From: Brumimicrobium oceani
GTDB taxonomy: Bacteria; Bacteroidota; Bacteroidia; Flavobacteriales_D; Crocinitomicaceae
NCBI RefSeq assembly: GCF_003143775.1
Contig: NZ_QFRJ01000002.1
Coordinates: forward strand, 516,501-580,500
Direction of reading: 5' to 3'
DNA: 64,000 nucleotides
Within the stretch, counting starts at the first letter, position 1. Every line of letters begins with the position of its first letter. The translations under genes and the position numbers were made by a program. The notes under the pieces were generated by a model. That model was not told where the DNA came from, did no database searches, and saw nothing but the letters and a program-made list of their open reading frames with translations. This document shows, piece after piece, positions 12,163 through 37,193 of this stretch.

Positions 12163-13239
12163 ATGGTAGCCTTATTTGTCTATTTGTTTATTGCTTTATT
12201 TATTTCATTTCTGTGCTCAATCATGGAATCAGTTTTACTCTCTACCCCACAATCTTTCCTTATTGTAAAACAGAACGAGGGAAAAGCTTGGGCAAAATCA
12301 TTTATCGATTTAAAAATAAATATAGACAAACCTCTATCTGCTATTCTAACCTTAAACACAGTTGCACACACCGTTGGTGCTGCAGGTGTTGGTGCAGAAG
12401 CAGTAAAAGTTTTTGGAGAAGCTGCTTTTGGGGTTATTTCGGCAGTTTTAACTTTATTGATTTTGTTTCTCACTGAAATAATCCCTAAAACCGTAGGTGC
12501 TCAATACTGGAGTACTTTGACCAAGCCAGTCAACAAGCTAATAAAAATTACAATTTTCATCACTTACCCTTTTGTATTGATCTCGGCATTAATTACAAAA
12601 TTATTTTCCAAAAAAGGAAACGAAAGCACTACAAGTAGAGCCGAAATAGCGGCATTAACCAACATTGGAACCAAAGAAGGTTTGTTTTCGAACAAGGAAA
12701 ATAAAATTATTCAAAACATTCTTAGACTTAAGAATATAAAAGTTAAGGAAATTATGACGCCCAGGGTGGTTGTGGCCACTGTTGATGAAAACATGAGTTT
12801 ACTTGAGTTCCTTAAACATAAGGAGTTTCTAAAATTCTCAAGAATACCCGTCTATTCCGAAAATAATGAAAACATAACTGGATACGTCTTGAGACAAGAA
12901 GTTTTCGAAAACTTAGCTGAGGGAAAAAAAGAACTTAAACTAAAAGATTTAAAACACTCCATCCTCAAAGTACCCAATTTTACCGCTATTTTTTCACTTT
13001 GGGAAAGTTTGCTAGAAAAGAAAGACCATATCGCGTTAATCATTGACGAATATGGTGGAATGGACGGTATTGTCTCGATGGAAGACATTATAGAAACATT
13101 GCTGGGCTTGGAAATAATGGACGAAAAGGATACAGTCACAGATATGCAAAAATACGCCCGAGAAAGATGGGAGAAAAGACAAGTGAAATATGATTTAATC
13201 GACGATTTGAAAAACACAGGAAATGATGATAAATCTTAA
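12163..13239 (+). CDS. CNNM/CBS-domain membrane protein (HlyC/CorC family), short form
   Basis: A 358-aa membrane protein. Residues 1 to about 150 form a CNNM transmembrane domain with a small-residue helix ('ESVLLSTPQSFL'), the polar 'TLNTVAHTVGAAGVGA' and the signature 'LTEIIPKTVGAQY'. Residues about 190-325 hold a CBS pair ('VKEIMTPRVVVATVD', 'RIPVYSENNENITGYVLRQ', 'IDEYGGMDGIVSMEDIIETLLG'). The family is linked to Mg/Co or Na-coupled divalent cation transport. The usual C-terminal CorC/HlyC module is absent: the protein ends about 35 residues after the CBS pair. It lies 44 bp upstream of the IRG-like GTPase and probably shares its transcript. Confidence 0.92.
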   Translation: MVALFVYLFIALFISFLCSIMESVLLSTPQSFLIVKQNEGKAWAKSFIDLKINIDKPLSAILTLNTVAHTVGAAGVGAEAVKVFGEAAFGVISAVLTLLILFLTEIIPKTVGAQYWSTLTKPVNKLIKITIFITYPFVLISALITKLFSKKGNESTTSRAEIAALTNIGTKEGLFSNKENKIIQNILRLKNIKVKEIMTPRVVVATVDENMSLLEFLKHKEFLKFSRIPVYSENNENITGYVLRQEVFENLAEGKKELKLKDLKHSILKVPNFTAIFSLWESLLEKKDHIALIIDEYGGMDGIVSMEDIIETLLGLEIMDEKDTVTDMQKYARERWEKRQVKYDLIDDLKNTGNDDKS

Positions 13240-13283
13240 AACATGCACCACTTTTTTAACAAATCATCACTATCTTTATAAAC

Positions 13284-14390
13284 ATGGAATTCGATAAAAT
13301 GAACCCCAACGAGGTCATAAAAAAACTAAAAGCTGATTTAGAAAGTTACCAAAACGCTAAAATCAAATGCGGAATTATTGGAAGAAGCGGAACTGGAAAA
13401 TCATCTATGATTAATGCAATTGCTGGAGAACATATTGCTGAAGTGGGTGAGATAGAAACCACCATGAACGTGAATGAACCGATAGAAAGCAATGGACTGC
13501 TATTTTATGATTTACCAGGTTGTTCAACGTCAAAATTCCCAAAAGAAGGATACATAGAAGCATTCAATGTTCAGGAATTCGATTGTGTAATCTTGGTCAC
13601 ATCAGATCGCTTTTTTGAAGATGATTTGTATTTAATCAAAGAACTAATTAAAATAGAGATTCCTGTATTTACGGTACGCACAAAAATTGATTTCGCTATC
13701 GAAAGAGGAATGAAAAGAGGAGTTCCGGAAGGTGAAACACTCAAAAAAGTAAGAGACAACATTGCTGAAAATTTAAAAGGAATTGACGTTAAAGGAATTT
13801 ACTTAACCTCTGCGGATTACCCCAAAGAATATGATTTTAGCAAATTGCTAGAAGATGTTTTTTTTTCACTAAATGACTTTAAAAAGGAGCGTTTTATTGC
13901 AGATATCAATATTACCAGCAACAAAATATTAGAAGAAAAAAAAAGAATAGCTGAGAAAATTGTTACCCGACACTCGGCCATTGCAGCAGCTAATGGACTT
14001 AATCCAATTCCTGGTGTAGACATCAGCGTAGACATTGGAATTTTGGTGAAAATGTCGAAAGAAGTCTCCTCTATTTATGGACTTGACAAAGAACACCAAG
14101 AGTTCAACTTACAGTTTTTAGATAAAAAAAGCGCCAAAGCAATCGCTTCAATCGTTCTTCAATACACCACAAAATACGGAGGAAAAGAAGCCATTATGAT
14201 TTTACTGAAAAGAGTAAGTTCCTCCATTGTCACAAAAAGTGCATCAAAATGGGTTCCTTTTGTAGGACAAGCCATTGCCGCAGGAATAGGTTTCAAAATG
14301 ACCTCCTGGGTTGGAAAAGACATGATAAAAGATGCAGAGGAAATTGCTGTGGAAACTTATGAGGCTTTGAAAGCTTCGGTTTTTAGCTAG
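13284..14390 (+). CDS. IRG-like (immunity-related GTPase type) GTPase
   Basis: A 368-aa protein with an N-terminal G domain and a helical C-terminus. G1 is GRSGTGKS (33-40), the switch I Thr is near 59-60, G3 is DLPG (76-79) and G4 is TKID (133-136). The surrounding sequence follows animal interferon-inducible IRG proteins closely: 'FYDLPGCSTSKFPKEGY', 'EFDCVILVTSDRFFEDDLYL', 'VFTVRTKIDFAIERG', then 'KVRDNIAENLKG' and 'YDFSKLLEDV'. The C-terminal part (about 200-368) is predicted alpha-helical with a Gly/Ala-rich hydrophobic stretch ('WVPFVGQAIAAGIGFKM') that could insert in or lie on membrane. IRGs act on membranes of pathogen-containing vacuoles; bacterial members are little studied. It lies 42 bp upstream of the HipA_2 gene. 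Membrane remodelling, stress or defence roles are inference. Confidence 0.85.
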   Translation: MEFDKMNPNEVIKKLKADLESYQNAKIKCGIIGRSGTGKSSMINAIAGEHIAEVGEIETTMNVNEPIESNGLLFYDLPGCSTSKFPKEGYIEAFNVQEFDCVILVTSDRFFEDDLYLIKELIKIEIPVFTVRTKIDFAIERGMKRGVPEGETLKKVRDNIAENLKGIDVKGIYLTSADYPKEYDFSKLLEDVFFSLNDFKKERFIADINITSNKILEEKKRIAEKIVTRHSAIAAANGLNPIPGVDISVDIGILVKMSKEVSSIYGLDKEHQEFNLQFLDKKSAKAIASIVLQYTTKYGGKEAIMILLKRVSSSIVTKSASKWVPFVGQAIAAGIGFKMTSWVGKDMIKDAEEIAVETYEALKASVFS

Positions 14391-14432: not shown

Positions 14433-15215
14433 ATGATGCAAACATTGGAAATACGGACGGTTAATGTCGTTCAATACATAAGCCCTTTACGTGAAGGAGG
14501 CTCGATGCCTGGTCTTGTAAAAGCAGACGATGAATTTACTTATATCATTAAATTTAGAGGTGCAGGGCAAGGAAAAAAAGCCCTTATAGCCGAATTTCTT
14601 GGTGGTGAATTGGCTCGAGCTATTGGACTAAAAATGCCGGAATTGGTTTTTATGAATCTCGATGATTCTTTTTCTATAATGGAGCCCGATGAGGAAGTTC
14701 AAGATTTGTTAAAATTCAGCGTAGGATTAAATTTGGGAATGCACTTCTTATCTTCTGCCATCACTTACGACCCTTTGGTTTCGGAGGTTGATGCCATGAC
14801 GTGCTCTAAAATTGTGATGCTAGACAGTTTGATTTCTAACATTGATAGAACAACAAAGAACCCGAATATATTAATCTGGAAAAAAGAATTGTGGATCATT
14901 GATAACGGAGCAAGCTTCTATTTTCACCACAATTGGGACAACTGGAAAAACCATCTTACCCGCAGCTTCCCCATGATAAAAGATCATGTTTTACTAGAAA
15001 AAGCAACAAAACTAAAGGAAGCAGCAAAGAAAATTCAAAAAGATTTGAGTGAAGAAAAAGTTAAAACGATAATTCAAGCTATTCCAGAAGAATGGTTGGA
15101 AGATGAACAAGACCCCCTCAATCCAGATGAAAAACGTGCAGCATATCTTGAGTATATGATGGCAAAATTGGGATTAATTGATTTACTCGTAAAAGAAGCT
15201 CAAGATGCAAGATAG
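14433..15215 (+). CDS. HipA_2 kinase-like protein
   Basis: A 260-aa protein with features of the HipA-like (HipA_2) kinase fold. These are a possible ATP-lysine in 'YIIKFRG' (Lys40), a catalytic-loop-like 'SNIDRTTKNPN' (Asp138, Asn143), and a metal-binding 'WIIDNGASFYF' (Asp157). Full HipA toxins are about 440 aa; this compact form lacks the N-terminal HipA_N1 subdomain and has no HipB-type DNA-binding partner beside it. Its stop overlaps the start of the DUF3037 gene by 11 bp, implying translational coupling, and HipA_2-DUF3037 pairing is a recurrent bacterial arrangement. Substrate unknown. The second ATG (14436) is also possible. Confidence 0.82.
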   Translation: MMQTLEIRTVNVVQYISPLREGGSMPGLVKADDEFTYIIKFRGAGQGKKALIAEFLGGELARAIGLKMPELVFMNLDDSFSIMEPDEEVQDLLKFSVGLNLGMHFLSSAITYDPLVSEVDAMTCSKIVMLDSLISNIDRTTKNPNILIWKKELWIIDNGASFYFHHNWDNWKNHLTRSFPMIKDHVLLEKATKLKEAAKKIQKDLSEEKVKTIIQAIPEEWLEDEQDPLNPDEKRAAYLEYMMAKLGLIDLLVKEAQDAR

Positions 15216-15588
15216 ATATATATACGAATACGCCATCATCCGCTTCTCACCGCTCGTTGAACGTGGAGAATTTTTTAATATTGGAGCAATTCTTTATTCC
15301 AAACCAAAGAAATTTATAGCGATGCGATTTCATATAGACGAAGCCAAACTTTCTGCTTTCAAAAGTGAACATACCAAAGAAGAATTAGAAAATTACTTAA
15401 AAGCTTGGGAAGACATTTGTAATGCGCAACCAAAAAATAATGCCATTGCACAAATGGAAATGCCAAATCGATTCCGTTGGTTAGTTGCCACAAGAAGTAC
15501 GATTATTCAAAGTTCGCCTACTCACACTGGTGTTTGTGAAAATCCAGAAAAAGAATTGGAGGATATATTTGAACGCTTTGTACTTTAG
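15205..15588 (+). CDS. DUF3037 protein
   Basis: A 127-aa protein. The N-terminus 'YEYAIIRFSPLVERGEFFN' followed by 'GAILYSKPKKFI' matches DUF3037, a small family usually encoded next to HipA_2 proteins. Its ATG lies inside the last codons of the HipA_2 gene. No catalytic motif is visible; a regulatory or complex-forming role with the kinase-like partner is inferred from synteny alone. It is the last gene of the 12163-15588 group. Confidence 0.85.
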   Translation: MQDRYIYEYAIIRFSPLVERGEFFNIGAILYSKPKKFIAMRFHIDEAKLSAFKSEHTKEELENYLKAWEDICNAQPKNNAIAQMEMPNRFRWLVATRSTIIQSSPTHTGVCENPEKELEDIFERFVL

Positions 15589-15867: not shown

Positions 15868-18279
15868 ATGAGATTTTTTTCATTTTTATTCATCCTTCTT
15901 TCCTTTTCAGCGCTCAACGCACAAGAAGGACTTAGCTACCAAAAACCATCACAAGAAATTTTAGATTTAGTTGATGTTCAAAGAGCACCGAGTGTTTTTA
16001 TGGACGAAGCTAAAAACTATATGATTTTAGTTTCTAGAAATGCTTATGGTTCAATTGAGGAACTTTCTCAAGAAGAATTACGATTGGGAGGTTTAAGAAT
16101 TGATCCTAAAACCAACATCGGTAGCCGAGTGAATTACTTTAACAATATTGAAATTAAAAGTTTAAAATCTAAAAACACCCAAAGAATTCAAGTGGAAGCT
16201 TTGCCACAAAATCCAAGATTGACAAACTTTAGTTGGTCACCAGATCAAACAAAAATAGCGTTTACACACACCACAGAAAATGGTGTTGAGCTTTGGGTTT
16301 TAGATTTAAAAACGGCAAAAGCTATAAAATTAACAGACGCCAATCTCAATGCGAATATTGGAGACGCCATAAACTGGTTTGCTGATGGAAAATCTATCCT
16401 TGTTAAAATGGTTTCTTCTGAAAAAGAAGATTTAATCAACACGAAAACAGCTGTTCCAAAGGGGCCAACAATTTCTGTAAATGACGGTAAGAAAGCACAA
16501 AATAGAACCTACCAAGATTTATTGAGCAACAAAAGCGATGAGCACAACTTCGAACAATTGGCACGCGCTGAACTTTATCAAGTAACTTTAGAGGGTACAA
16601 GTAAAAAATGGTTGACGGACGATATTTATACAACGGTTTCCTTCTCGCCTGACGGAAATTATGTAATGATTGAAACAGTGGAAAAACCTTTCTCCTACCT
16701 TGTTCCCTATTACAGATTCCCTTCAAAAACTACAATCTACACAAAAGAAGGTAAAAAAGTAGAAACAGTTTTAGAAGTTCCTTTAATCGAAGACCTTCCA
16801 CAAGGATTTATGGCGGTTCGTACCGGAAAAAGAAATTTCTCTTGGAGAAACGACAAAGCAGCCACTTTAATTTTCACCAAGGCATTGGACGGCGGAGATC
16901 CTGAAAATGAAGTTCCGTTTAGAGATGAAACTTTCGAAATGGATGCGCCTTTTAACGGCAATGAAAGAAGTTTGATTAAGACAATTAATCGCATGGGTGG
17001 AATTCAATGGGGAGATAACTCAACAGCCATTGCAAGTGATTATTGGTGGAATACAAGAAACACCAAAACATACCTTTTCAATCCTTCAGACAACAGTCAA
17101 GAAGCCAAAGTAATCAGGGACAGAAGTTACCAAGATGCATACAGTGATCCGGGTAATTTTGTAACGAAAAGAAATCAATTTGGAGAAAGTGTGTTGGCAT
17201 TAAACAACAACAAAGCTTATCTTTTGGGAGCAGGTCACTCTGCCGAAGGTCAATTTCCATTTTTGGATGAATTGGATTTCAACACCCTAAAGAAGAAAAG
17301 AATTTACCAGTCAGAATACACGGACAAGGTGGAAAGTTTAAGAGATTTTGATCCAGAAAGTAAACGCATGTTGGTAAGAATAGAATCGCCAACAGAATAT
17401 CCTAACTACTTTTTCAGAAATATAAGAGGGAAGAAACTCACGCAAATCACCTTCTTTGAAAATCCATTTAAAAGCATTCAAAATGTGCACAAAGAGGTAA
17501 TAAATTACAAACGTGACGACGGTCTAGATTTATCAGGAACTTTATATCTGCCTGTTGGATATGATAAAGAAAAGAAGGAAAAAGTACCATTAATCATTTG
17601 GGCTTATCCAAGAGAATATAAAAATTCAGCAAGTGCGGGCCAAAACACACAAAACCCTAATAAATTCACTTTCCCTTATTATGGTTCAATGATTTATTGG
17701 GTAACTAAAGGTTATGCCGTACTAGACAATGCTGCATTCCCAATTGTAGGTGAAGGCGATGAAGAACCGAACGATACTTATGTGAAACAACTCGTTGCCA
17801 ACGGAAAAGCTGCAATAGACGCCGTAGACGAAATGGGTTATATCGACAGAGACAGAGTTGCTGTTGGAGGTCATTCTTATGGTGCATTCATGGTGGCTAA
17901 TTTACTTACGCATTGTGATTTATTTGCAGCAGGAATTGCGCGAAGTGGAGCTTATAACAGAACATTAACGCCTTTTGGATTCCAAAGTGAAGAAAGAAAT
18001 TATTGGGAAGCACCAGAAGTTTACAATACCATGTCACCATTTATGAATGCCGATAAAATGAATCAGCCTTTATTGCTTATTCATGGAGAAGCCGACAATA
18101 ATTCCGGAACTTATCCTATGCAAAGTGAGCGTTATTTCAATGCTTTAAAAGGTTTGGGAGCTACCGTAAGATTAGTGGTTTTACCAAAAGAGAGTCATGG
18201 ATACAAAGCCAAAGAAAGCATTCTGCATTTATTGTGGGAGCAAGATCAATGGTTGGAAAAGTACGTTAAGAATAAGTAG
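15868..18279 (+). CDS. S9 family (prolyl oligopeptidase-type) secreted serine peptidase
   Basis: An 803-aa protein with a signal peptide (residues 1-18), a beta-propeller region (about 30-530) and a C-terminal alpha/beta-hydrolase domain. The triad is visible: Ser670 in GGHSYGAF, Asp743 in HGEADNNSGTY and His777 in ESHGYK. The long, complete sequence and the 'GEGDEEPNDTYVKQLVANG' region resemble the glutamyl-endopeptidase-like branch of S9 peptidases. The likely role is degradation of exported or imported peptides in the periplasm. It is monocistronic, with about 280 bp upstream and 200 bp downstream free of genes on this strand. Confidence 0.93.
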   Translation: MRFFSFLFILLSFSALNAQEGLSYQKPSQEILDLVDVQRAPSVFMDEAKNYMILVSRNAYGSIEELSQEELRLGGLRIDPKTNIGSRVNYFNNIEIKSLKSKNTQRIQVEALPQNPRLTNFSWSPDQTKIAFTHTTENGVELWVLDLKTAKAIKLTDANLNANIGDAINWFADGKSILVKMVSSEKEDLINTKTAVPKGPTISVNDGKKAQNRTYQDLLSNKSDEHNFEQLARAELYQVTLEGTSKKWLTDDIYTTVSFSPDGNYVMIETVEKPFSYLVPYYRFPSKTTIYTKEGKKVETVLEVPLIEDLPQGFMAVRTGKRNFSWRNDKAATLIFTKALDGGDPENEVPFRDETFEMDAPFNGNERSLIKTINRMGGIQWGDNSTAIASDYWWNTRNTKTYLFNPSDNSQEAKVIRDRSYQDAYSDPGNFVTKRNQFGESVLALNNNKAYLLGAGHSAEGQFPFLDELDFNTLKKKRIYQSEYTDKVESLRDFDPESKRMLVRIESPTEYPNYFFRNIRGKKLTQITFFENPFKSIQNVHKEVINYKRDDGLDLSGTLYLPVGYDKEKKEKVPLIIWAYPREYKNSASAGQNTQNPNKFTFPYYGSMIYWVTKGYAVLDNAAFPIVGEGDEEPNDTYVKQLVANGKAAIDAVDEMGYIDRDRVAVGGHSYGAFMVANLLTHCDLFAAGIARSGAYNRTLTPFGFQSEERNYWEAPEVYNTMSPFMNADKMNQPLLLIHGEADNNSGTYPMQSERYFNALKGLGATVRLVVLPKESHGYKAKESILHLLWEQDQWLEKYVKNK

Positions 18280-26783: not shown

Positions 26784-28418
26784 TTATTCAATAATACTTA
26801 TTTCCACAACCCTATTCAATTTATGTTCTTCTTCACTAAATCCTTTTTCAGATGGATAAGGTAAATCCTCTTTTCCTTTGGCTACAATACTGATTCTTGC
26901 CTTATTAAATTTATTTTCAAGGAGGAAATCATTTACGTTTCTCGCTCTTTTTTCGGCCAAGATCTTGTTGTAGCGCTGAGAACCTCTGGTATCTGTATAG
27001 CCAGTTAATTGAATGGTACACGTAGGACATTTCTCCATTATTTCATGCAAAGCAATCAGTTTATCTTCCGACAGGGCTTCTTCATAGGTAGACTTATCAA
27101 ACCCGAAGTAAATCCCAGTAGTTTCCCACTCCACTATAAAAGGTGGCTCCACCTCCTCTACTGGTTCTTCCTCCTCTACTTTCTCTTCTCTTTTAAATAT
27201 AATATAGTATATATCATCGTCTCCTACCCCTCCTGCTCTATTCGATGTAAAAAGTGCACTATCGGCAGTTGCAAAAGAAATATTAAAGTCATCTTGAAAT
27301 GAATTAATAGGATGCTTAAAATGTCTTACTTTGGTATTTTGCAAAGGATAATTTACTGAATAAAGATCTAATCCTCCATATCCTATTCTCCCGTTAGAGG
27401 AAAAGGTCAGCAATGTATCGCCAGTAAAAACAGGAAACATTTCGTCATTTACTGTATTAAGTTCAGTAAGCGGTTCTGGTTGGGTCCATTCTTCATTCAC
27501 CAATTGTGAATGATATAAATCAGCTCCATTCGTATTTTTCCCGATTTTACTAAATACCAAAGTATTTCCTAATTCATTAAATGATCCATGAGCTGTAGAG
27601 CTTTCATCAAACAGACCAGAATATTCGAAGGGTTTGATGTCGGTAAAAGTAAACTCATCACCAAGATTGGCCCAATACAAATTTGGTGCTTTTTCTAATT
27701 TGTTTGAAGAAAGCGGGTAAGTAATCGTTAATAAAACCCTCTTTGTTCCCGGCACAAATGAAAGCCCAATAATAGATGCAAAGTCCTTCCCTTCCAATTT
27801 AATAATCTTTTCCTCACCATTTATAGAAATTTGAGGCCTTGTTAGAAATAATTCAGCCTGGGAATCATTTTCATTATTCACTTCTTCTATTAAGTTACCA
27901 GCATTATCTACACCAAACTCAATCAGCTTAACTGGATTATTGTCATAGTTACCATAGTTAATATCTGCCTTTGGGCCATTATCGCTTGCCAAATCAAATG
28001 CGACAAACTTTTCAGGCTTCCATTCTTCAATGGCTTTACAAGAGGCTATCTTTACAGAAACATCCTCTTCTCCCCCATTTAGCTGATACTTTTTGTAAGC
28101 GTTAATACTCTCTGCATAATTGCCTAAACTTCGATTAACTTCTCCGCTAATGAAATAAAACATCGGATCGATTGGCTCTTGATTTTCGAGTGTTAACAAA
28201 ACAGGATAACAGGATTCATAATCTCCTAGAATGTAATAAGAATAAACCAATTGTTTTAAGTTTTCTTTCTTTAGCCCCTGTTCTTCATAAATTACTTGCA
28301 GCGTTTTCGCAGCCTTTTCATACTCGTAATTTATAAAATAGTTTTCAGCCTGTTCAACCGACTGAGAGAATGCCTGTGCGCTTATAAAAGCGAATACTAT
28401 TAAAATGACTTTTTTCAT
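26784..28418 (-). CDS. OmpA-family protein with TPR-like and PD40 regions
   Basis: A 544-aa protein with a signal peptide (1-18). Residues about 20-130 contain TPR-like helices ('AENYFINYEYEKAAKTLQ', 'GNYAESINAYKKY'). About 200-400 hold WD40-like PD40 strands ('NTLVFSKIGKNTNGADLY', 'TLLTFSSNGRIGYGGLDLY'). About 430-544 form an OmpA C-terminal peptidoglycan-binding domain ('IQLTGYTDTRGSQRYNKILAEKRARNV' region, with the Asp and Arg that bind diaminopimelate). Such proteins are usual partners of PorP/SprF proteins and T9SS adhesins and anchor the complex to peptidoglycan. Its ATG shares one base with the porP/sprF-like stop codon (TAATG), so the two are coupled. Confidence 0.92.
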   Translation of the reverse strand: MKKVILIVFAFISAQAFSQSVEQAENYFINYEYEKAAKTLQVIYEEQGLKKENLKQLVYSYYILGDYESCYPVLLTLENQEPIDPMFYFISGEVNRSLGNYAESINAYKKYQLNGGEEDVSVKIASCKAIEEWKPEKFVAFDLASDNGPKADINYGNYDNNPVKLIEFGVDNAGNLIEEVNNENDSQAELFLTRPQISINGEEKIIKLEGKDFASIIGLSFVPGTKRVLLTITYPLSSNKLEKAPNLYWANLGDEFTFTDIKPFEYSGLFDESSTAHGSFNELGNTLVFSKIGKNTNGADLYHSQLVNEEWTQPEPLTELNTVNDEMFPVFTGDTLLTFSSNGRIGYGGLDLYSVNYPLQNTKVRHFKHPINSFQDDFNISFATADSALFTSNRAGGVGDDDIYYIIFKREEKVEEEEPVEEVEPPFIVEWETTGIYFGFDKSTYEEALSEDKLIALHEIMEKCPTCTIQLTGYTDTRGSQRYNKILAEKRARNVNDFLLENKFNKARISIVAKGKEDLPYPSEKGFSEEEHKLNRVVEISIIE

Positions 28419-29365
28419 TATATACTAGGTGCATAAATTCTATTTCTCTGTAACCAAGGGGTTTTAGCTTGCGTGTTACCTTTAAATATTTGTAATTCCA
28501 GAAAAACCTCATGAGAGCCAGTAGAATGATTCATAATGTCTGTGATATTATAGTCGTAAGCATAGCCAACTTTAAAAACACCCAATTGAACACCACCAAG
28601 GAATACCACTGCTTCTTTGTTTCTATAACTTGCTCCTAGCCAAAACCTATCTTTGTACGTCCCCACTGCAGTTATGTCAAACTGTGCTGTGGAAGTCTCT
28701 ATTATTTGACCAAGTGTAGAAAGTTTTAAGCCGAAATCATTTTCAAAATCAAAGTTATATCCTCCTGTTAGGTAATAAGTACGCACCAGTGGATTTACAA
28801 AAGAAGTATTAAAGTCATACAAATCACGATTCACCTCCACTAAATTATAAGCAGAAATACCTGCATAGGCTTTATCTTTGAAATAATAGAAAGCGCCGAA
28901 ATTAGCATCAGGAATCATTTGGTTATTGAATCCTCGAGTAACTGCTGGATCATCTGGAAGATAGGTTTCCATTTTATTGGGATCAACAATATGCTGAGTA
29001 ATGGAAAGGCCTAATCCTAGTCCAATTTTATGTTCCCCCCTTTTATCCAGCTTAAGATGATATGCGCCATTAATGTTAAATCCAGACCTTCTGCTTGGTC
29101 CTGACACATCATTAAAGAATGAGCCACCAATTCCAAAATTATTAGCAATCTTAGCATTAGTTGAAATCAACTGTGTTGTTGGTGCACCTGGAAAACCTGC
29201 CCACTGCTTTCTAAAATTGACATGAACAGGAATATAATCTTTGGCACCAACAGCCCCAGGATTAACCATTACATCATTAAATAAATATTGTGAACTCAGG
29301 GCGACTTGTTGCGCATTTACTCCAAAACCAAAGGCGATAAATGCGAGTATAATTAAATTTTTCAT
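28418..29365 (-). CDS. PorP/SprF family T9SS outer-membrane protein
   Basis: A 315-aa beta-barrel protein with a signal peptide (1-18) and the family opening 'QQVALSSQYLFNDVMVNPGAVGAKDYIP' in pieces ('YLFNDVMVNPGAVG'), followed by 'FRKQWAGFPGAPTTQLIS' and 'NFGIGGSFFNDVSGPSRR'. These N-terminal motifs define PorP/SprF. SprF-type members are needed for secretion or surface attachment of their SprB-like adhesin, which is usually the gene just upstream. Here it begins 3 bp after the 1052-aa SprB-repeat protein, in line with that pairing. Confidence 0.94.
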   Translation of the reverse strand: MKNLIILAFIAFGFGVNAQQVALSSQYLFNDVMVNPGAVGAKDYIPVHVNFRKQWAGFPGAPTTQLISTNAKIANNFGIGGSFFNDVSGPSRRSGFNINGAYHLKLDKRGEHKIGLGLGLSITQHIVDPNKMETYLPDDPAVTRGFNNQMIPDANFGAFYYFKDKAYAGISAYNLVEVNRDLYDFNTSFVNPLVRTYYLTGGYNFDFENDFGLKLSTLGQIIETSTAQFDITAVGTYKDRFWLGASYRNKEAVVFLGGVQLGVFKVGYAYDYNITDIMNHSTGSHEVFLELQIFKGNTQAKTPWLQRNRIYAPSI

Positions 29366-29368
29366 TGC

Positions 29369-32300
29369 TTATCTTATTATAGTAATATTTCCATTTAATA
29401 CATTATTTTCTTCATCATTCAAATTCAGCACCCAATAATAAACTCCCGCAGGCAATAGCTTACCATTTGTAGTCCCATCCCAAGGAGAGTACTCATTTTC
29501 CATACTTCGAACTAAATTACCCCACTTATTAAATATTTGCATTTTAAAATTTGGGTACAACTCAATATTGTCAATAATCCATGTATCGTTATAGTTATCA
29601 TTATTGGGGGTAAATGTGTTCACAGGGTCAATACAAGTTATTGGATTGATTGGTATCAAAACAGAATCTGTAAATGTGCAACCCAACATATCCGTAACTT
29701 CAACACTGTAATATTGATTTGACAAGCCTTCGTTGTATGCATCATTTACGTTATTCTCCCAAAAGAAATTATACCCCCCATTACCACCTTTAGCTATCGC
29801 ATAGGCAGTACCATCATTTTGGTCTTTGCAAGACACCTCTGTTGTGGTAAAACTCATAGATATTGCTTCTGGCTGGGTTATTTCAACTATTAAAGAATCT
29901 CGACAACCATTCTGATCTACCAAAGATAATTCATAAACGCCAGAAGATATACTCAACAAATCCTGTGTTGTTGCTCCATTATTCCATGCGTAGTTGTAAG
30001 TTGGTGTTCCTCCTGACACCTCCACATCTATAACTCCGTCGGAGGAGCCGTTACAACTTGCAATTTCATAAACGTATTCAATTTGAATTAATTCTGGTTC
30101 TTCAATGGCAAGGAACATTTCATAATTACAGCCGTTAGCATCTACTATTTCTATCTGATAGGTTTCGGCAGGAAATAATTCCAGATCTTCCGTTTGTGTA
30201 GCTAATGCATAATCTGAATTAAACCATTTAAAGTCGTAAGGAGCAGTTCCTCCTGTTGGTGAAATATCAATTTTCCCATCTTCCAATTCGAAACACGAAA
30301 CATCAGTAATTACCTCGTTCAAGCTTAAGGCATTCGGCTGGTTTACAATTAAAGTATCCGAAATCATGCAGCCATTTTGATCTACAACATCAAAGAAATA
30401 ACTCCCTGAACTAAGATTGTTGATCGCTGTAGTCGTTTCACCATTAGACCAACTATAAGAATAAGGGACTGTTCCACCCGCCACAGAAAGTGAAATCGAA
30501 CCTTCGTTTCCTGAGTTACAAAGTACATCGCTTACTGTTAAGTTATAAGTCAAACTATCTGCAGGTTCTGTTAAAGTATGAGCTATTGATGAGGTACACC
30601 CTTGATTATCTGTAACTGTAACATTATAATTCCCTGCCGCTAGCTGGATTAAATCTTCTGTTATACCACCATTATTCCAAGCATAAGTATAAGGAAAAAC
30701 CCCTCCTGTTACACTTAAATCGATAGTTCCCGTGCTGTCCGAATTACAAAGAATATTTGTACCCATTGTTGATGTTTCCAATAAAGCGGGCTCATTAATA
30801 GTTAAAGTATCTATCACTTTACACCCATTTTGATCTGTCACCTCAAATCTGTAATCATCTGCTCCGTAATTAACGAGGTCTTCATTCGTATTACTTAACT
30901 GAAATGAAGCGCTAGACCATTGAAAACTGTAATTAGGTGTTCCACCTGTTACTGTTAAGTCAATTCCTCCGTTCGACTCACCAAAACAGTTTACGTCATT
31001 GACAATACCTGACACTGCTAGTGGAGAAGCGGGCTCTGTTATTACCACATTTCCAACATTTGTGCATCCATTATTGTCAATTACCGTATAAGTGTAATTC
31101 CCTGCTAAAATGTTATCAATATCCTTACTTGTTTGACCCGATGACCAGCTGTAGCTAAAATTTGATGCTCCACCACTCACCATTAAATTGATAGCTCCTG
31201 TATTGTTTCCAAAACAGAGTACAGGTTCAACGCTAACACTCACATTTATCGGAGATGCAGGTTCATTCACTGTTGCTGATAATGTTGCCATACATCCGTT
31301 ATCATCTGTTACTTCCGCAGTATATACACCTGCTGTAACTCCCGTAAGATCTTGTGTTGTTGCAAATGTATTTCCTAAGCTATTTTTCCAGTTATAAGTA
31401 AAAGGCCCAATTCCCCCAGACACGTTCAAATTAATTTCTCCATCTGTACCACCATAACAATTAACATTTATGATATCTGCACTTAATTGGATTTTATTTG
31501 GCTCTAAAATAGTCGCCTGATCAACCAGTTTACAGCCTCTTGCATCGCTTACTGTAACTTCATACACGTTTGCTTTAACATTGTTTAAGCTAGCGGTATT
31601 AGCCACTAGGAAACTTTGGGCGTTTTTCCATGAATAGTGATAAGGCAATGTACCACCCAACACGGTTATTCCCACCACTCCTGTAGCATCTCCGTTGCAA
31701 AGAACATCCACTTTAGCCATCGCCCCTGAAAGAGCGTCTGGTTCTGTAATGTTGTAGGTTTCTTGTATGGAACACCCTTTGTTATCTGTGATAGTTACAG
31801 AGTAACTCCCTGCTGATAAACCGCTTATTTCTGCCTGCGTTTGACCATTGTCCCATAGGAAAGCATAAGGTGGTGTTCCCCCCCAAACAGAAACATTAAT
31901 TTTCCCGGTAGTATTTCCAAAACAATCCACATTAGTAAGTGCAGCCGAAGAGCTAAGTGCCTCTGTTGGTCCGTTGATATTAAAAGTTTGTGAGGCACTA
32001 CAAGAAGCATTTGGCGCGTTAACGGATAAAGTATAAGTTCCACTTGGAACATTTGTTAAATCCTTATTGGTTGAAACAATAGCACCAAAACTATTTTTCC
32101 ATGAAAAAGAGTAGGGCATCATCCCTCCTGAAAGGTTGATTGAAACACCCCCAGTAGAGCTTCCAAAACAATCAATATTCTTAACCACTCCTGAAATTGA
32201 AATCGGATTTGGTTCTGTCACCACATAGGCTCCAACGACTGAGCATCCTGTGTTATTATCTTTTATTGTAACAGTATAGGTACCTGCAGACAAAAAATCA

Positions 32301-32527
32301 ATTGTACTTGTGTTCCCACTTTTAATAGTTCCATTTGACCACGTGTGGGTATAACTTCCGCTTCCACCGGAAATAATTGAAATTGTAGCACTACCATCCG
32401 AAACATTGTAGCAGGATGTGTTTGTACCTGTGACTGCTATCGTGGGGCAGGCAGACATTGCCAATTCAGCCGAAACGGTATTTATAATACCAAGCAGACC
32501 TATGAATATTGAAATTAGTTTTTTCAT
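29369..32527 (-). CDS. SprB-repeat adhesin with type B T9SS C-terminal domain (1052 aa)
   Basis: A signal peptide (1-20) is followed by 12 tandem SprB repeats of about 75-80 residues. Each has a 'V.CFG...G.I.L.V.GG..PY.Y.WSNG' core and a 'AG.Y.VTVTDNNGC' end. The last about 85 residues match the gliding-motility-associated (type B) sorting domain: 'NTFTPNNDNYNDTWIIDNI', 'YPNFKMQIFNKWGNLV', 'PWDGTTNGKLLPAGVYYWVL', ending NGNITIIR. SprB-type proteins are long surface adhesins moved by the gliding machinery or used in attachment. It forms a unit with the PorP/SprF gene downstream and the larger paralogue upstream (4-bp gap). Confidence 0.94.
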   Translation of the reverse strand: MKKLISIFIGLLGIINTVSAELAMSACPTIAVTGTNTSCYNVSDGSATISIISGGSGSYTHTWSNGTIKSGNTSTIDFLSAGTYTVTIKDNNTGCSVVGAYVVTEPNPISISGVVKNIDCFGSSTGGVSINLSGGMMPYSFSWKNSFGAIVSTNKDLTNVPSGTYTLSVNAPNASCSASQTFNINGPTEALSSSAALTNVDCFGNTTGKINVSVWGGTPPYAFLWDNGQTQAEISGLSAGSYSVTITDNKGCSIQETYNITEPDALSGAMAKVDVLCNGDATGVVGITVLGGTLPYHYSWKNAQSFLVANTASLNNVKANVYEVTVSDARGCKLVDQATILEPNKIQLSADIINVNCYGGTDGEINLNVSGGIGPFTYNWKNSLGNTFATTQDLTGVTAGVYTAEVTDDNGCMATLSATVNEPASPINVSVSVEPVLCFGNNTGAINLMVSGGASNFSYSWSSGQTSKDIDNILAGNYTYTVIDNNGCTNVGNVVITEPASPLAVSGIVNDVNCFGESNGGIDLTVTGGTPNYSFQWSSASFQLSNTNEDLVNYGADDYRFEVTDQNGCKVIDTLTINEPALLETSTMGTNILCNSDSTGTIDLSVTGGVFPYTYAWNNGGITEDLIQLAAGNYNVTVTDNQGCTSSIAHTLTEPADSLTYNLTVSDVLCNSGNEGSISLSVAGGTVPYSYSWSNGETTTAINNLSSGSYFFDVVDQNGCMISDTLIVNQPNALSLNEVITDVSCFELEDGKIDISPTGGTAPYDFKWFNSDYALATQTEDLELFPAETYQIEIVDANGCNYEMFLAIEEPELIQIEYVYEIASCNGSSDGVIDVEVSGGTPTYNYAWNNGATTQDLLSISSGVYELSLVDQNGCRDSLIVEITQPEAISMSFTTTEVSCKDQNDGTAYAIAKGGNGGYNFFWENNVNDAYNEGLSNQYYSVEVTDMLGCTFTDSVLIPINPITCIDPVNTFTPNNDNYNDTWIIDNIELYPNFKMQIFNKWGNLVRSMENEYSPWDGTTNGKLLPAGVYYWVLNLNDEENNVLNGNITIIR

Positions 32528-32531
32528 TTGC

Positions 32532-35500
32532 TTATCTTACTATTGTTATGTTCCCTGTGTACTTATTCTCTTCCTTATTAGAAAGAATGATGATATAATA
32601 ATAAACGCCGGCAGGTAGTGCTTTCGCATTATGTGTTCCATCCCAAGCTTCATACTCACCCTCTGAAGAGAAAATTTCATTCCCCCATTTATTGTATATT
32701 TTAACTGTGTTATTTGGATATAAATCAATGTTTCCAATCACCCATGTATCATTATACAAATCTCCATTAGGAGAAAAGGTATTAGGAATGATTAAACACT
32801 CCTCGTTATTTGCAATTACATCAAGCTCAAAACTATTTGAACAGTTATTATTATCCAGAATTGTTAAGGTATAAATACCAGGTCCTACATCTTCAAGATT
32901 TTGACCAAAGGAGCTATTAGACCAAGTGTAAATATAAGGTTGCGTTCCGCCATAAGGTTCAACATAAATTGCAGCGTCACTTTGATCCACACAGCTCACA
33001 GGATTCATTTCGTAGGTAATTCCAATTTCATCTGGTTCATTAACAGATAATTTTGTTTCAATTATACATCCTTGCGCGTCTTCTGCCCTAAGATTGTACT
33101 CCCCCTTACTCAAGCCTTGAAGATCTTCATCTGTAGAATTGTTAGACCATAAATAGCTGTAAGGAGTAGTACCACCATTTAATGTTAAATCAATCGAACC
33201 ATCGTTACCATCATAACAAGATGCGTCATTAACAAAGGCTTGGAAGGTAAATGGCGCTGGCTCATCCACGAATAATAACTCTTCATAAATACAATTGTTT
33301 TCGTCCGATACTCTAATGAAATATTCACCTGTTGGGATATCATTAATTGTTTCAGAAGGATTGTTTAATAGAATTTCATTTTCATCTCCCCAATTAAAGT
33401 AATAAGGTTGAACGCCTCCTGTGATTGTTAACTCTATTTTTCCATCTGAATATCCAAAACAACTTGGGTCTGTTGCTGCTACCGCAACATCAAGTAACTG
33501 CGGTTCATTAATTGTAGCACCAGAGAAGGCAACACAGCCGTTATTATCTGTTACCGTTACAGAATACATTCCGTCTGTTAAACCTGAAAGATGATTACTT
33601 GTAGCACCGTTTGACCAATTGTAGGAATAAGGCAAAGTTCCGCCAACAACTTGTGTTTCTATACTCCCTGTTGAATCATCAAAACACAACACATCTTTAC
33701 TAAATGTGGAAACCACCAATGACGCCGCTGGCTCATCAACGGAGATCGTTTTTTGTATATCACACCCATTTTGATCGACAACCGTAACGATATAAACACC
33801 CGCAGAAATATTAAGCAAATCCTCTGTCGTAATTCCATTAGACCAATTGAAAGAATAGTTTCCTGTTCCTCCACTAACAGAAATATCTATCGCTCCAGAT
33901 GTTCCTCCAAAACAATCCACATTTGTTACTGAAGAAACTATGGCTAGCGGAGCACTTGGTTGGCCTATTACGCTAGTATTGGTTTCAGAACATCCGTTTG
34001 CGTCAGTGACCACAACTGAATAAGCGCCAGACTCAAAGTTCAAAAGGTCTTGCGTGGTATCTGCTAGAATGTTAGTCATCCCATCAGACCATTCATAACT
34101 ACAGGGTGTTGTTCCCCCTGTAACTGATACATCAATTCCTCCATCGTTATCACCGAAGCAAAGCACATTAGTCGCTACACTATTTACAAGTAAAGGGTTT
34201 GAAGGCTCTGTAATCGTAATTGTATTGCTTTCTGCACAGCCCAAGCTATCCACAACATTAATGGTATAAACTCCAGCAGTCAATGAATTGATATTTTCGA
34301 CTGTCTGTCCATTATTCCAAAGTATTGTATAAGGAGAGGTTCCTCCAGAAATACTAGTCATTATTTCACCTGTTGAGTCCCCGTTACAAAGAACATCGCT
34401 TTGAGTTGAAACTATTGCTAAAGGGGCGTCAGGTGAAGTTATTGAATAATTGAAAACTGTATTACATCCCATGTGATCAGTTACTGTTAAAGAATAATCC
34501 CCAGCTACCACATTTAGAAGGCTCGGGTTCACTGTTCCATTAGACCACAGATAGTTATAAGGTGCTGTTCCTCCAGAAACCTGAGGGTCTATTTGGCCGT
34601 TTGAAGCCCCAAAACAGTCCACATTGGTTATTATTTCATTATCATTCAATGACATAATTGGCTGGTCTATTGTTACTGTAATCGTGCTAGAGCAAGCGTT
34701 AGCATCGTAAACAATTACTGTGTAATCATCAGCAGCTAAACCTACCAAGTCTTGACCGTCAAACGCCATCAAACCAGATAGGTTACTATACCATTGGTAG
34801 TTATAAGGAGGTGTTCCTCCTGTAACAGTAAGGTCAATATTTCCATTCGCGCCACCATAACAAGACACGTCAGTTGAAAGTTCCGTTAAGGTAACGCCTT
34901 GAGCAGGTTCCGTTATGGTGTAACTATTTGTGCTTGTACATCCCTTATCGTCTGTAACCGTAAAACCATAAGTTCCGGCAGTAACATTTGAAAGGTCTTT
35001 TGTTAAATCACCATTAGACCAACTGTAAACATAAGGAAGTGTTCCTCCGTTTACAGTAATATCCACCCCACCAGTGCTAGAAGAATGACATTCCACATTG
35101 CTTACAATAGCAGAATGAGTAAGGTCAAAAGGTTGTTCTATTACAACAGATAGCGTTTCTGTACATCCGTTTTGGTCAGAAACTGTAAGGGTATAAATAC
35201 CTTCATCTAATCCACTAACATCTTTAGTTGTAGCACCATTCGACCATAGGAAACTGTAAATTGGAGTACCTCCCGAAACGGTGATATTTATACTTCCATC
35301 ATTCAGACCTAATCCACATGACTTATCTTGCTTAGTATAGCTGATATTGAGCTGTTCTGGCTCTTTTATTGTTGCGCCATCGAAAAGCTGACATCCGTTA
35401 TTATCGACAATATTTACTTGATAAGCCCCTTCCTGCAAGTCAATTAATGTGGTTGAATTTCCGACTGTAGCATTGACACCGTTTGTCCATACATAGGAAT

Positions 35501-37193
35501 AAGGCAAAGCGTCGGTAGCGGCAGAAATATTTAGTTCGATTGTTCCATCATTCCCTCCATAGCAACTAACATCTGTAACGACAGTATTCGTTTGAAGTTT
35601 ATTAGCAATCATTTTAAAAGAGGTAAAAGTAGTATCTTGGAACCCTTCCAACTCCCATGTTTCATTAAACCAGTCATAAGAAAAACCACCAATCGGAATC
35701 GATTTATCCCATAAAGGACCAACATTTAAAGCATAGCCAGGAAATCCGATTTCTGGAATTTTCACTGATGGAGTACATACTCTCTTTCTACAAATCTTAA
35801 AAAATCCACAAGGATAAGGAATAGAAATACAAACTTCTGGAATGGTATAACCAGGGACTACTGTAACTTTTGGTACATCAAAACCAAATTGAAAGGCACT
35901 CATCAAAAAATCAAAGTCCACTTGGTCATAAGTATGGTTTTTAAACATACCATCGATGGAATAGGTTGGTGTAATATCTAATTCTTCGAAAAAGCATGGA
36001 AATTTATAATTCAATGATTCTCCAATTTCCAAATTAACAATGCTACTTTGTTGCACTTGAGAGGTCGTTCCATTTGCTTTGGTTATAGAATAATCAACTG
36101 GAATGGGAAATTCGAATTTCCCAAAAACTTTAGGATTAAAATCAAAACATTGATTGTTACTAATATTGGCATCAAAACTAGCCGAGAAGAAATTCCATTC
36201 TAACTCTGCAATCCCTACACTTTCTGACCCTGAGAGAGACGACAATGCAATCCCAGCAGCGGGAAGAGGTGGTGGTGAGTATTGCAGGATTTTACCTAAG
36301 ACCTTGAAGACCTCTAAATTAAGATTGAAATATGTACTATCTCCGCACGCAGACAAAGATAAATTGGCCGGGTTTACAGCAGAAGATGTCTCAACATATG
36401 GAATGGTTACTTCACCTGACAAACCAAAACTTGTACTTGGTATCTCCGCTGGAAAAGCAGGTATGTGCACCTGCCACGGAAGGTTAGAACTAATATCTAA
36501 AGGTTTAGCATAAGGCCAACCTGCGGCACCGGGAAGATTTGGTGCTAACATTTCTGCAGGACCTAAAAACCAAACTCCTGTGTTTCCGCCTGTAGAAGCA
36601 CCGTTACCACTAATTGTAGCAATATTTATGGTTTGCAATCCTGTATTAAAATTAGGAATAATTGGAAAAGCAGTACAGCCAAAGAAACAAAGTTGAGCGG
36701 ATGCTGAAGCGCCCATTTCAAAGTATAAATCCCAAAAGAACTCCCCAGCTGAAGGGTAAAGACTTTTTAACTCCCATCCCGGCATCAGGTCATAATTCGT
36801 TTGTATCGTAACATCATCCCCCTGATCGTAAGAGAGGTCTGTTGGCATATTCAGTTCAATATCTACTGGATACTTAACTTCAACAGTTCCAGTGGTAAAA
36901 CCTTCTATTCGGATTTCACTTCCTAGTCTTCCAGAAAAAGAACCATTTAACTTACCCCCAAAAGGGTTTCCGACAATATTTGTTATTCCTCCATTACCGG
37001 TATTAAAATTCACATTCCAAGACTCATCAAACAAAGTAACGGTTTGATCTAAGGTTACAGGTGAAAACGAGGGCCCCCACATATTTTGCTTTCCGGAATT
37101 AAATTCTGCATGATGATTTACAATTTGTTGAGCAAAAACATTTTCAAATGTAAAAAACACTAGCAAAAAAGCGGATACGACGATGTACTTCAT
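32532..37193 (-). CDS. Giant SprB-repeat adhesin with type B T9SS C-terminal domain (1553 aa)
   Basis: A signal peptide (1-21) precedes a unique region of about 500 residues that includes the Cys-rich 'CISIPYPCGFFKICRKRVC' and several lamina-like beta stretches. From about residue 530, 12 SprB repeats follow, close in sequence to those of the 1052-aa neighbour. A type B sorting domain ends the protein ('PNTFSPNGDLYNDTWVIGNI', 'DGTHNAKALPAGVYYYIIIL', ending TGNITIVR). The two adhesins look like a duplicated pair sharing a CTD, with the larger having gained or kept an extra N-terminal module that may determine the ligand. It starts 4 bp after the 37198 gene. Confidence 0.93.
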   Translation of the reverse strand: MKYIVVSAFLLVFFTFENVFAQQIVNHHAEFNSGKQNMWGPSFSPVTLDQTVTLFDESWNVNFNTGNGGITNIVGNPFGGKLNGSFSGRLGSEIRIEGFTTGTVEVKYPVDIELNMPTDLSYDQGDDVTIQTNYDLMPGWELKSLYPSAGEFFWDLYFEMGASASAQLCFFGCTAFPIIPNFNTGLQTINIATISGNGASTGGNTGVWFLGPAEMLAPNLPGAAGWPYAKPLDISSNLPWQVHIPAFPAEIPSTSFGLSGEVTIPYVETSSAVNPANLSLSACGDSTYFNLNLEVFKVLGKILQYSPPPLPAAGIALSSLSGSESVGIAELEWNFFSASFDANISNNQCFDFNPKVFGKFEFPIPVDYSITKANGTTSQVQQSSIVNLEIGESLNYKFPCFFEELDITPTYSIDGMFKNHTYDQVDFDFLMSAFQFGFDVPKVTVVPGYTIPEVCISIPYPCGFFKICRKRVCTPSVKIPEIGFPGYALNVGPLWDKSIPIGGFSYDWFNETWELEGFQDTTFTSFKMIANKLQTNTVVTDVSCYGGNDGTIELNISAATDALPYSYVWTNGVNATVGNSTTLIDLQEGAYQVNIVDNNGCQLFDGATIKEPEQLNISYTKQDKSCGLGLNDGSINITVSGGTPIYSFLWSNGATTKDVSGLDEGIYTLTVSDQNGCTETLSVVIEQPFDLTHSAIVSNVECHSSSTGGVDITVNGGTLPYVYSWSNGDLTKDLSNVTAGTYGFTVTDDKGCTSTNSYTITEPAQGVTLTELSTDVSCYGGANGNIDLTVTGGTPPYNYQWYSNLSGLMAFDGQDLVGLAADDYTVIVYDANACSSTITVTIDQPIMSLNDNEIITNVDCFGASNGQIDPQVSGGTAPYNYLWSNGTVNPSLLNVVAGDYSLTVTDHMGCNTVFNYSITSPDAPLAIVSTQSDVLCNGDSTGEIMTSISGGTSPYTILWNNGQTVENINSLTAGVYTINVVDSLGCAESNTITITEPSNPLLVNSVATNVLCFGDNDGGIDVSVTGGTTPCSYEWSDGMTNILADTTQDLLNFESGAYSVVVTDANGCSETNTSVIGQPSAPLAIVSSVTNVDCFGGTSGAIDISVSGGTGNYSFNWSNGITTEDLLNISAGVYIVTVVDQNGCDIQKTISVDEPAASLVVSTFSKDVLCFDDSTGSIETQVVGGTLPYSYNWSNGATSNHLSGLTDGMYSVTVTDNNGCVAFSGATINEPQLLDVAVAATDPSCFGYSDGKIELTITGGVQPYYFNWGDENEILLNNPSETINDIPTGEYFIRVSDENNCIYEELLFVDEPAPFTFQAFVNDASCYDGNDGSIDLTLNGGTTPYSYLWSNNSTDEDLQGLSKGEYNLRAEDAQGCIIETKLSVNEPDEIGITYEMNPVSCVDQSDAAIYVEPYGGTQPYIYTWSNSSFGQNLEDVGPGIYTLTILDNNNCSNSFELDVIANNEECLIIPNTFSPNGDLYNDTWVIGNIDLYPNNTVKIYNKWGNEIFSSEGEYEAWDGTHNAKALPAGVYYYIIILSNKEENKYTGNITIVR

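Follow-up and report, generated by a model that had tools for sequence, protein, structure and literature searches.

A probable homologue of the animal immunity-related GTPases in Brumimicrobium, with a DUF697-type C-terminal domain

What use might a free-living bacterium have for a GTPase that looks like the immunity-related GTPases (IRGs) of animals, which attack the membranes that enclose invading microbes? The question is raised by a gene of Brumimicrobium oceani within the stretch of 64,000 nucleotides analysed here (the window), and the features of its locus are collected in Table 1. An initial reading of this DNA from its letters alone (the sequence-only reading) had called an open reading frame that we recover, intact, with exactly the same coordinates, strand and ATG start. 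It had also pointed to three motifs in an IRG-like environment, and these indeed occupy residues 33-40 (GRSGTGKS), 76-79 (DLPG) and 132-136 (RTKID), with DRFFEDDLYL at residues 108-117, i.e. the GX4GKS, DLPG and TKxD signatures are present in IRG sequence context. The position equivalent to Q61 of Ras is occupied by Cys80, which is not Gln but is not a large residue either; the Azospirillum and Deinococcus relatives described below have Tyr. A large hydrophobic residue at this position is an IRG feature, albeit one that the accessible part of a 2005 survey calls "far from diagnostic" (PMC1297648). The reading frame is open in all six Brumimicrobium genomes that carry it, with a mean dN/dS of ~0.07 (12 of 15 pairs), a value that is only rough because dS is saturated (1.7-3.5) in the 12 pairs used. 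In these six Brumimicrobium species purifying selection acts on an intact gene, whose chromosomal position is conserved in part.

Table 1. Features of the GTPase locus, in window coordinates
Feature	Position	Strand	Basis or remark
CNNM + CBS membrane protein	12163..13239	+	Neighbour, not part of the system; Pfam, genome comparison
Promoter-like block TTAACAAATCATCACTATCTTTATAAAC	13256..13283	+	Directly before the start codon
TATCTTTA within the block	13271-13278	+	Resembles what we take to be the Bacteroidota -7 element (element name and promoter class are our assumption)
IRG-like GTPase gene	13284..14390	+	368 aa; ATG start; ORF, Pfam, PDB-sequence matches
G1/P-loop GRSGTGKS (residues 33-40), GKS class	13380..13403	+	Sequence, alignment
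Switch I GEIETT (residues 55-60)	13446..13463	+	E58 = Irga6 E106, T60 = Irga6 T108 (alignment)
G3 DLPG (residues 76-79)	13509..13520	+	Next residue Cys80 = Ras Q61 position
Putative trans-stabilising loop RFFEDD (residues 109-114)	13608..13625	+	R109 = Irga6 R159, D114 = Irga6 D164
G4 TKID (residues 133-136)	13680..13691	+	Sequence, alignment
C-terminal helical domain, DUF697 type (residues 212-366), NPIPGVD and WVPFVGQAIAAGIGF motifs	13917..14381	+	Pfam, profile alignment with the IRGB10 C domain
HipA_2 kinase (PADLOC candidate PDC-M66A)	14433..15215	+	Not an obligate partner; Pfam, PADLOC
DUF3037 protein (PADLOC candidate PDC-M66B)	15205..15588	+	Overlaps the kinase gene; Pfam, PADLOC
Peptidase, presumably S9-type	15868..18279	+	Neighbour; of the ten Brumimicrobium genomes, those with a match at E <= 1e-50 are the six with the GTPase

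The resemblance to IRGs proposed in the sequence-only reading is strongly supported by Pfam, PDB sequences, profile searches and hhalign, and extends to the linker and the start of the C-terminal domain. The Pfam IIGP model (PF05049) matches residues 9-271 at 122.6 bits (E 2.8e-35; curated cut-off 24), 75 bits ahead of the best generic GTPase model; the other scores are 47.8 bits for MMR_HSR1, 29.3 for FeoB_N, 27.5 for DUF697 and 24.5 for Dynamin_N (PF00350), the last of which stays below its cut-off of 27 and covers residues 31-64 only. Among PDB sequences the best 13 matches are all IRGs (E 3.4e-22 to 6.3e-16), including Irga6 (3.4e-22), IRGB10, TGTP2 (which we take to be Irgb6) and interferon inducible GTPase 1C, followed by Era at 2e-6. 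A profile built from eight relatives (A1), all of which match IIGP at E <= 0.01, reaches the IRGs at 4.4e-33, and the IRG alignment of the window GTPase itself runs past the G domain, via the linker, to residue 270. No second IIGP match at E <= 0.001 is encoded in the 3.85-Mb genome (all 17 candidates scored), even though a further GTPase of this genome reaches E <= 1e-8 with the family profile, and none was found among 14 control genomes. In a sample of 395 Bacteroidota genomes, eight have an IIGP match at E <= 0.001 and two one above the cut-off, namely the window gene and a 214-aa gene of another genome that presumably encodes an EngB/YsxC-like GTPase; as the latter passes at 25.5 bits, the cut-off is imperfectly specific. 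The sequence-only reading had named DUF697 or dynamin as alternative affiliations, to be preferred if they scored best and no IRG match was seen: the IIGP match is clear, although the C-terminal domain does match DUF697. From these comparisons the window GTPase is almost certainly a homologue of the animal IRGs, with a homology that, at the level of sequence, runs from the G domain through the linker into the first part of the C-terminal domain.

The G domain also retains residues on which catalysis in Irga6 depends. In the accessible parts of two studies, the G domains of Irga6 are described as pairing through an interface that triggers hydrolysis, for which E106, R159 and D164 are crucial, and the regulatory GMS proteins as carrying different residues at these positions (PMC3042988, PMC4774019). 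The equivalents in a HMMER alignment are E58, R109 and D114 (with G103=G55, T108=T60 and S132=T82), and the three are retained in all six Brumimicrobium proteins, while none of the 11 other GTPases that could be aligned has all of them (12 were chosen; one FeoB gave no match and was dropped). Several observations count against the reading favoured below: the Azospirillum and Deinococcus relatives have D, K and D at the E106, R159 and D164 positions, and Irga6 E77, K161 and K162 are replaced by R, F and E in the window GTPase. Over 12 interface positions of Irga6 the identity is partial, with five matches by HMMER and four by MAFFT, which moves G103 by one column; IRGB10 itself is identical at seven.

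Beyond the linker, the protein continues into a domain that matches DUF697 (PF05128) over residues 212-349 with an E-value of 3e-6, just below the cut-off of 27.7 bits; five of the eight members of profile A1 match the same model at E <= 0.01, and both motifs of the domain recur in variant form in stand-alone proteins. Its description as helical with a Gly/Ala-rich hydrophobic stretch holds: the stretch comprises residues 323-341, and the domain is helical in AlphaFold2 models of low confidence (alignment of the window protein, L022 and L023; pLDDT 39.5 over the full length and 40.2 over the C-terminal domain). When the family is aligned to IRGB10 and Irga6 with hhalign, residues 22-358 fall on IRGB10 64-403 with a probability of 99.75, and in phmmer the Azospirillum relative aligns with IRGB10 61-407, including the C-terminal domain, at an E-value of 4.5e-13 for the whole. 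The C-terminal domain alone gives hhalign probabilities against IRGs of 11-15 (model A2) or 1-2 (A1), with pairwise E-values of 4e-4 to 0.03, and a search of solved structures with its profile, up to E 10, gave no IRG. A model of this domain scores 10.4 bits on the corresponding domain of IRGB10, which none of 5000 shuffles reaches, and 5.7 bits on the part of IRGB10 beyond the region aligned by the window protein itself, which six of 5000 shuffles reach. With real proteins as the control, 29 of 2169 segments reach 10.4 bits, and among the matches listed these are family members, stand-alone C-terminal domains or another GTPase-DUF697 protein. By profile, therefore, the domain is colinear with the IRG helical domain, though that part taken alone is weak evidence; common ancestry of the two domains is likely, if unproven.

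The protein departs from vertebrate IRGs at its other end. As only ~25 residues precede the G domain, helices A-B of the IRG fold are absent; the profile alignment starts at Irga6 56 (TGTP2 chain 37). The bipartite helical domain of IRGs (helices A-C and F-L) is accordingly not found as such, its C-terminal half being colinear with IRGB10, and with the first two helices missing the protein is better termed an IRG homologue than a vertebrate-type IRG. The window GTPase also has no clear transmembrane segment: its best 19-residue Kyte-Doolittle mean is 1.1, with none reaching 1.6, and the same measure gives 0.98 for the IRGB10 fragment and 1.44 for that of Irga6. Such hydropathy would suit a peripheral rather than a transmembrane protein. 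In the Azospirillum and Deinococcus relatives, whose C-terminal domains reach 1.67-1.68, a membrane-spanning segment is possible.

The gene has a narrow phyletic distribution. It is present in six of ten Brumimicrobium genomes, the other five copies being 74-80% identical to that of the window. We searched samples of 395 genomes of the phylum, 395 of the class and 349 of the order with about five candidates scored per genome, so that rare misses are possible; in neither the phylum nor the class sample was a full-length match found beyond the window's own genome. In the order sample at least 251 of the 349 genomes match profile A1 at E <= 1e-8; among the matches listed, those of full length are the six Brumimicrobium genes only, and the remainder cover the G-domain part alone, except for a 30-residue C-terminal fragment in G004. 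Most of the G-domain-only matches are taken for Der/Era-type GTPases, judging by length and a few sequences read. Two full-length relatives emerged from 72,556 plasmid records, one in Azospirillum thermophilum (34.8% identity over 96% of the length) and one in Deinococcus sp. QL22 (27.5% over 95%); two weak plasmid matches (H16 and H17), presumably ordinary FeoB- and EngB-like GTPases, were dropped, and scans of viral contigs for more diverse relatives yielded none.

Other matches, in eight plasmid and three phage records, comprise the C-terminal half alone or little more, and those whose genes were read are short stand-alone proteins. They come from Acinetobacter, Paenibacillus, Chimaeribacter and Staphylococcus records, with one annotated as "domain associated with GTPases" and the gene of a Staphylococcus plasmid record split over two frames. 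Of the stand-alone domains of 146-180 aa (L039, L040 and L111-L112), that of the Acinetobacter record lies beside recC, that of the Paenibacillus record beside the M gene of a type I restriction-modification system, and that of the Staphylococcus record beside a pair of genes for an rRNA methyltransferase and HPr. The phylum also has a second architecture that joins a GTPase to DUF697: in ~370-aa GTPases of one Bacteroidota genus (L025, L027), a different G domain is combined with a DUF697-type C-terminal domain (28-34 bits with the C-domain model).

Within Brumimicrobium, the sequence-only reading had noted a kinase-like gene and a CBS membrane protein beside the GTPase. The adjacency is real, with the CNNM/CBS gene upstream and the HipA-like kinase downstream; a synteny survey across the genus shows that neither is a conserved partner. 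The CNNM/CBS gene adjoins the GTPase only in G000 and G005: a single gene separates the two in G002, the distance is ~6.6 kb in G003 and ~25 kb in G004, and in G001 the closest CNNM gene (61% identical) is on another contig. The HipA_2 kinase occurs in four of the ten genomes, all four with the GTPase: directly 3' of it in G000 and G001, ~2.5 kb downstream in G003 and on another contig in G004, with none in G002 or G005. Similar kinases are encoded on five plasmid records without an IRG-like match, three of them annotated as HipA family and two of these with DUF3037. The overlapping HipA_2 and DUF3037 genes of the window (14433-15588) each match the PADLOC candidate PDC-M66, and 52%-identical relatives, likewise annotated with DUF3037, reside on Parabacteroides and Bacteroides plasmids.

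The peptidase gene follows the GTPase in five of the six genomes; in G004 it is on another contig, with HipA_2 ~2.6 kb before it. The four GTPase-free genomes lack the peptidase too, a pattern more in keeping with a locus long present in one branch of the genus than with recent mobility. In G004 the stretch 7995-10136 of L044 holds a two-gene insert right after the GTPase gene. One of its genes encodes a DUF2188 protein, which is the PADLOC candidate PDC-S16, and the other a protein of 206 aa with no assigned family; behind the insert, 88 bp from the 3' part of the GTPase gene are repeated at 95.5% identity, and a transposase gene is found ~4 kb further on. Synteny to HipA_2 and the peptidase is broken in this stretch. 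A promoter-like block, AACAAATC...TATCTTTAT, precedes the gene in G000, G003 and G004; since it is common to these despite different upstream genes, the GTPase gene probably has its own promoter. G005 shows the TATCTTTA part only, and no such block was seen before the orthologues of G001 and G002. Elsewhere, the window contains a type IX secretion and adhesin cluster (26784-37190) with SprB-repeat, CHU_C-tailed proteins of 1552 and 1051 aa and PorP/SprF and OmpA-family genes, adjoined by an ORF of 2452 aa (37903-45261).

Outside the genus, a link to defence comes from Deinococcus, where the gene of the relative, together with another GTPase gene related to it, sits within a BREX operon, on the opposite strand, between the side with DarT, methylase, brxC and brxB and that with pglZ and brxL. 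This stretch of the Deinococcus sp. QL22 plasmid (L115, 8869-12257) comprises the two related GTPase genes and a 515-aa protein inside the operon; the second GTPase begins with a hydrophobic stretch, and the annotation names a large DarT-like protein close by. The Azospirillum relative has genes for phosphatidylserine synthase and decarboxylase nearby, on the opposite strand, and, against a defence role, no defence-annotated gene within 8 kb. In PADLOC-DB no defence model covers most of the length of the window GTPase; there are four weak partial matches, the best to LeoBC (1.4e-4, residues 14-108). The one relative in a BREX operon is thus the only contextual support for defence outside the genus.

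We tentatively favour, on the strength of sequence and of analogy to Irga6, the reading that the protein is an IRG homologue, capable of self-assembly on membranes, that may serve in phage defence or in envelope stress, and hold this combined reading at a little under even confidence. Its individual parts differ in standing: assembly on membranes driven by GTP, as an analogy, is moderately probable, whereas phage defence as the main role is possible and short of an even chance. Upon GTP loading, two G domains would pair face to face, so that E58 can trigger hydrolysis in trans, in the manner of Irga6. The helical C-terminal domain would attach to the inner membrane without spanning it, and oligomers driven by the GTP cycle could bend the bilayer or breach it. 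With a promoter of its own, the gene would act alone. As a free-living bacterium has only its own membranes at hand, these would be the target, and the outcome might be either repair or remodelling of the inner membrane under attack, or its breach as an abortive defence. We infer that the protein would most likely serve cell-autonomous defence, acting at the membrane while a phage enters, assembles or lyses the cell; repair under envelope stress is a near rival.

That rival deserves weight. YcjF is a DUF697 protein, and the window GTPase could be a GTPase of membrane homeostasis or envelope stress, comparable to YcjX paired with YcjF in the phage-shock neighbourhood. DUF697 would then be the membrane-facing domain, and there would be no immune role; we consider this a serious possibility, short of probable. 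The DUF697 match and the annotation of the stand-alone relative are in keeping with it, as are purifying selection and the fairly stable chromosomal position of a gene whose defence-candidate neighbours are not conserved, a combination that counts against defence. The structure of YcjX is likewise cited, in the accessible part of one study, in connection with a family of GTPases whose predicted role lies in membrane-related stress (PMC11237479). What speaks for the IRG-type reading is that the G domain is IRG-like, with no YcjX family among the 15 Pfam families listed, that the gene occurs sporadically, both in its genus and in the phylum and class samples, and that the Deinococcus relative has its BREX context.

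The origin of the gene raises a further alternative, namely that an ancestor of these Brumimicrobium species captured a eukaryotic IRG gene. In its favour, the accessible parts of the sources place IRG genes in vertebrates (PMC1297648) and attribute homologues of interferon-inducible GTPases to Acanthamoeba (PMC4053784). One G-region tree unites the Brumimicrobium, Azospirillum and Deinococcus proteins and two IRGs against other GTPases with a support of 98/96 and, within this group, joins Brumimicrobium with the IRGs, apart from the other two bacteria (98/91), albeit with two long outgroup branches; the IIGP score, too, is higher in Brumimicrobium than in Azospirillum (63.7 bits). In a second tree, with two GTPase-DUF697 proteins added and four of the 11 outgroups kept, the larger group has 87/82 and support for the join falls to 67/94; here the AU test rejects neither bacterial monophyly (p 0.517) nor a union of Azospirillum and Deinococcus with the IRGs (p 0.534). 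We therefore dropped the placement of Brumimicrobium as the sister of animal IRGs. Capture is improbable also in that the C-terminal domain is closest, of those found, to bacterial DUF697-type domains, stand-alone ones included, and that the G region is nearer to Azospirillum (33% identity) than to Irga6 (26%). The proteins of the three bacterial genera and the IRGs probably form one family, for which the trees leave the direction of descent open. The G1, G3 and G4 motifs are common to TRAFAC GTPases in general. A generic similarity of that kind, with the IRG label a naming accident, is very improbable and already disfavoured by the gap between IIGP and the best generic model, the lack of another IIGP match at E <= 0.001 in the genome and the continuation of the IRG alignment through the linker, even if the EngB-like gene passes the cut-off and bacterial IRG-like GTPases were called too distant to place in the accessible part of the 2005 survey (PMC1297648).

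Taken furthest, these parallels would mean that bacteria use IRG-type GTPases as a cell-autonomous immune weapon to breach or remodel membranes under phage attack, that animal IRGs descend from such a GTPase-DUF697 protein, and that the IRG helical domain is a DUF697 domain; as a whole this is rather unlikely. The accessible part of the 2005 survey reported IRG-like GTPases in cyanobacteria with their relation to IRGs left open, called the origin of IRGs obscure, and held that the case would be strengthened by structural evidence for the IRG fold in organisms other than vertebrates (Bekpen et al., PMC1297648). Bacterial IRG-like GTPases as such are thus already known, while the DUF697 and BREX links were not found in the literature searched, from which subscription journals are largely missing: among the matches listed there is neither a characterised bacterial IRG nor a DUF697-IRG or BREX link, and DUF697 and GTPase occur together in work on silver resistance only. 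The terms IRG and DUF697 are likewise absent from the accessible part of a 2020 eLife survey of GTPase conflict systems (PMC7159879). This gives two leads, a possible kinship of the IRG helical domain with bacterial DUF697 and the possible presence of IRG-like GTPases as passengers in anti-phage islands, and small bacterial proteins make the age of the IRG machine, i.e. whether it is older than animals, directly testable.

Set beside known systems, the window GTPase shares with the vertebrate IRGs (Irga6, IRGB10, Irgb6) the GX4GKS, DLPG and TKxD motifs, the block DLPGxxTxxFPxxxY...DRFxxDDxxL, the equivalents of E106, R159 and D164, a linker in which KKERFIADIN stands against KRHNFMVSLP, and a colinear C-terminal domain; it differs in lacking helices A-B, in having Cys against Ile/Val at the Q61 position and in a C-terminal domain that scores as DUF697. 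To our knowledge, neither myristoylation nor interferon control is to be expected in a bacterium. With DUF697 (PF05128) proteins, which occur alone or fused to GTPases, it has in common the C-terminal 150 residues with the NPIPGxD and VPFVGQ motifs, whereas the stand-alone DUF697-type proteins that were read have no G domain. LeoA/LeoBC and the bacterial dynamin-like GTPases combine a GTPase with a helical, membrane-related part, and the weak LeoBC match (1.4e-4) is a point of likeness; the window protein is shorter than these, has a different C-terminal domain and matches Dynamin_N only below the cut-off, over residues 31-64. The cyanobacterial IRG-like GTPases, judged outside the G domain too distant to relate to IRGs in the accessible part of their description, can be likened to it by that description, as bacterial GTPases with IRG-like sequence features (PMC1297648).
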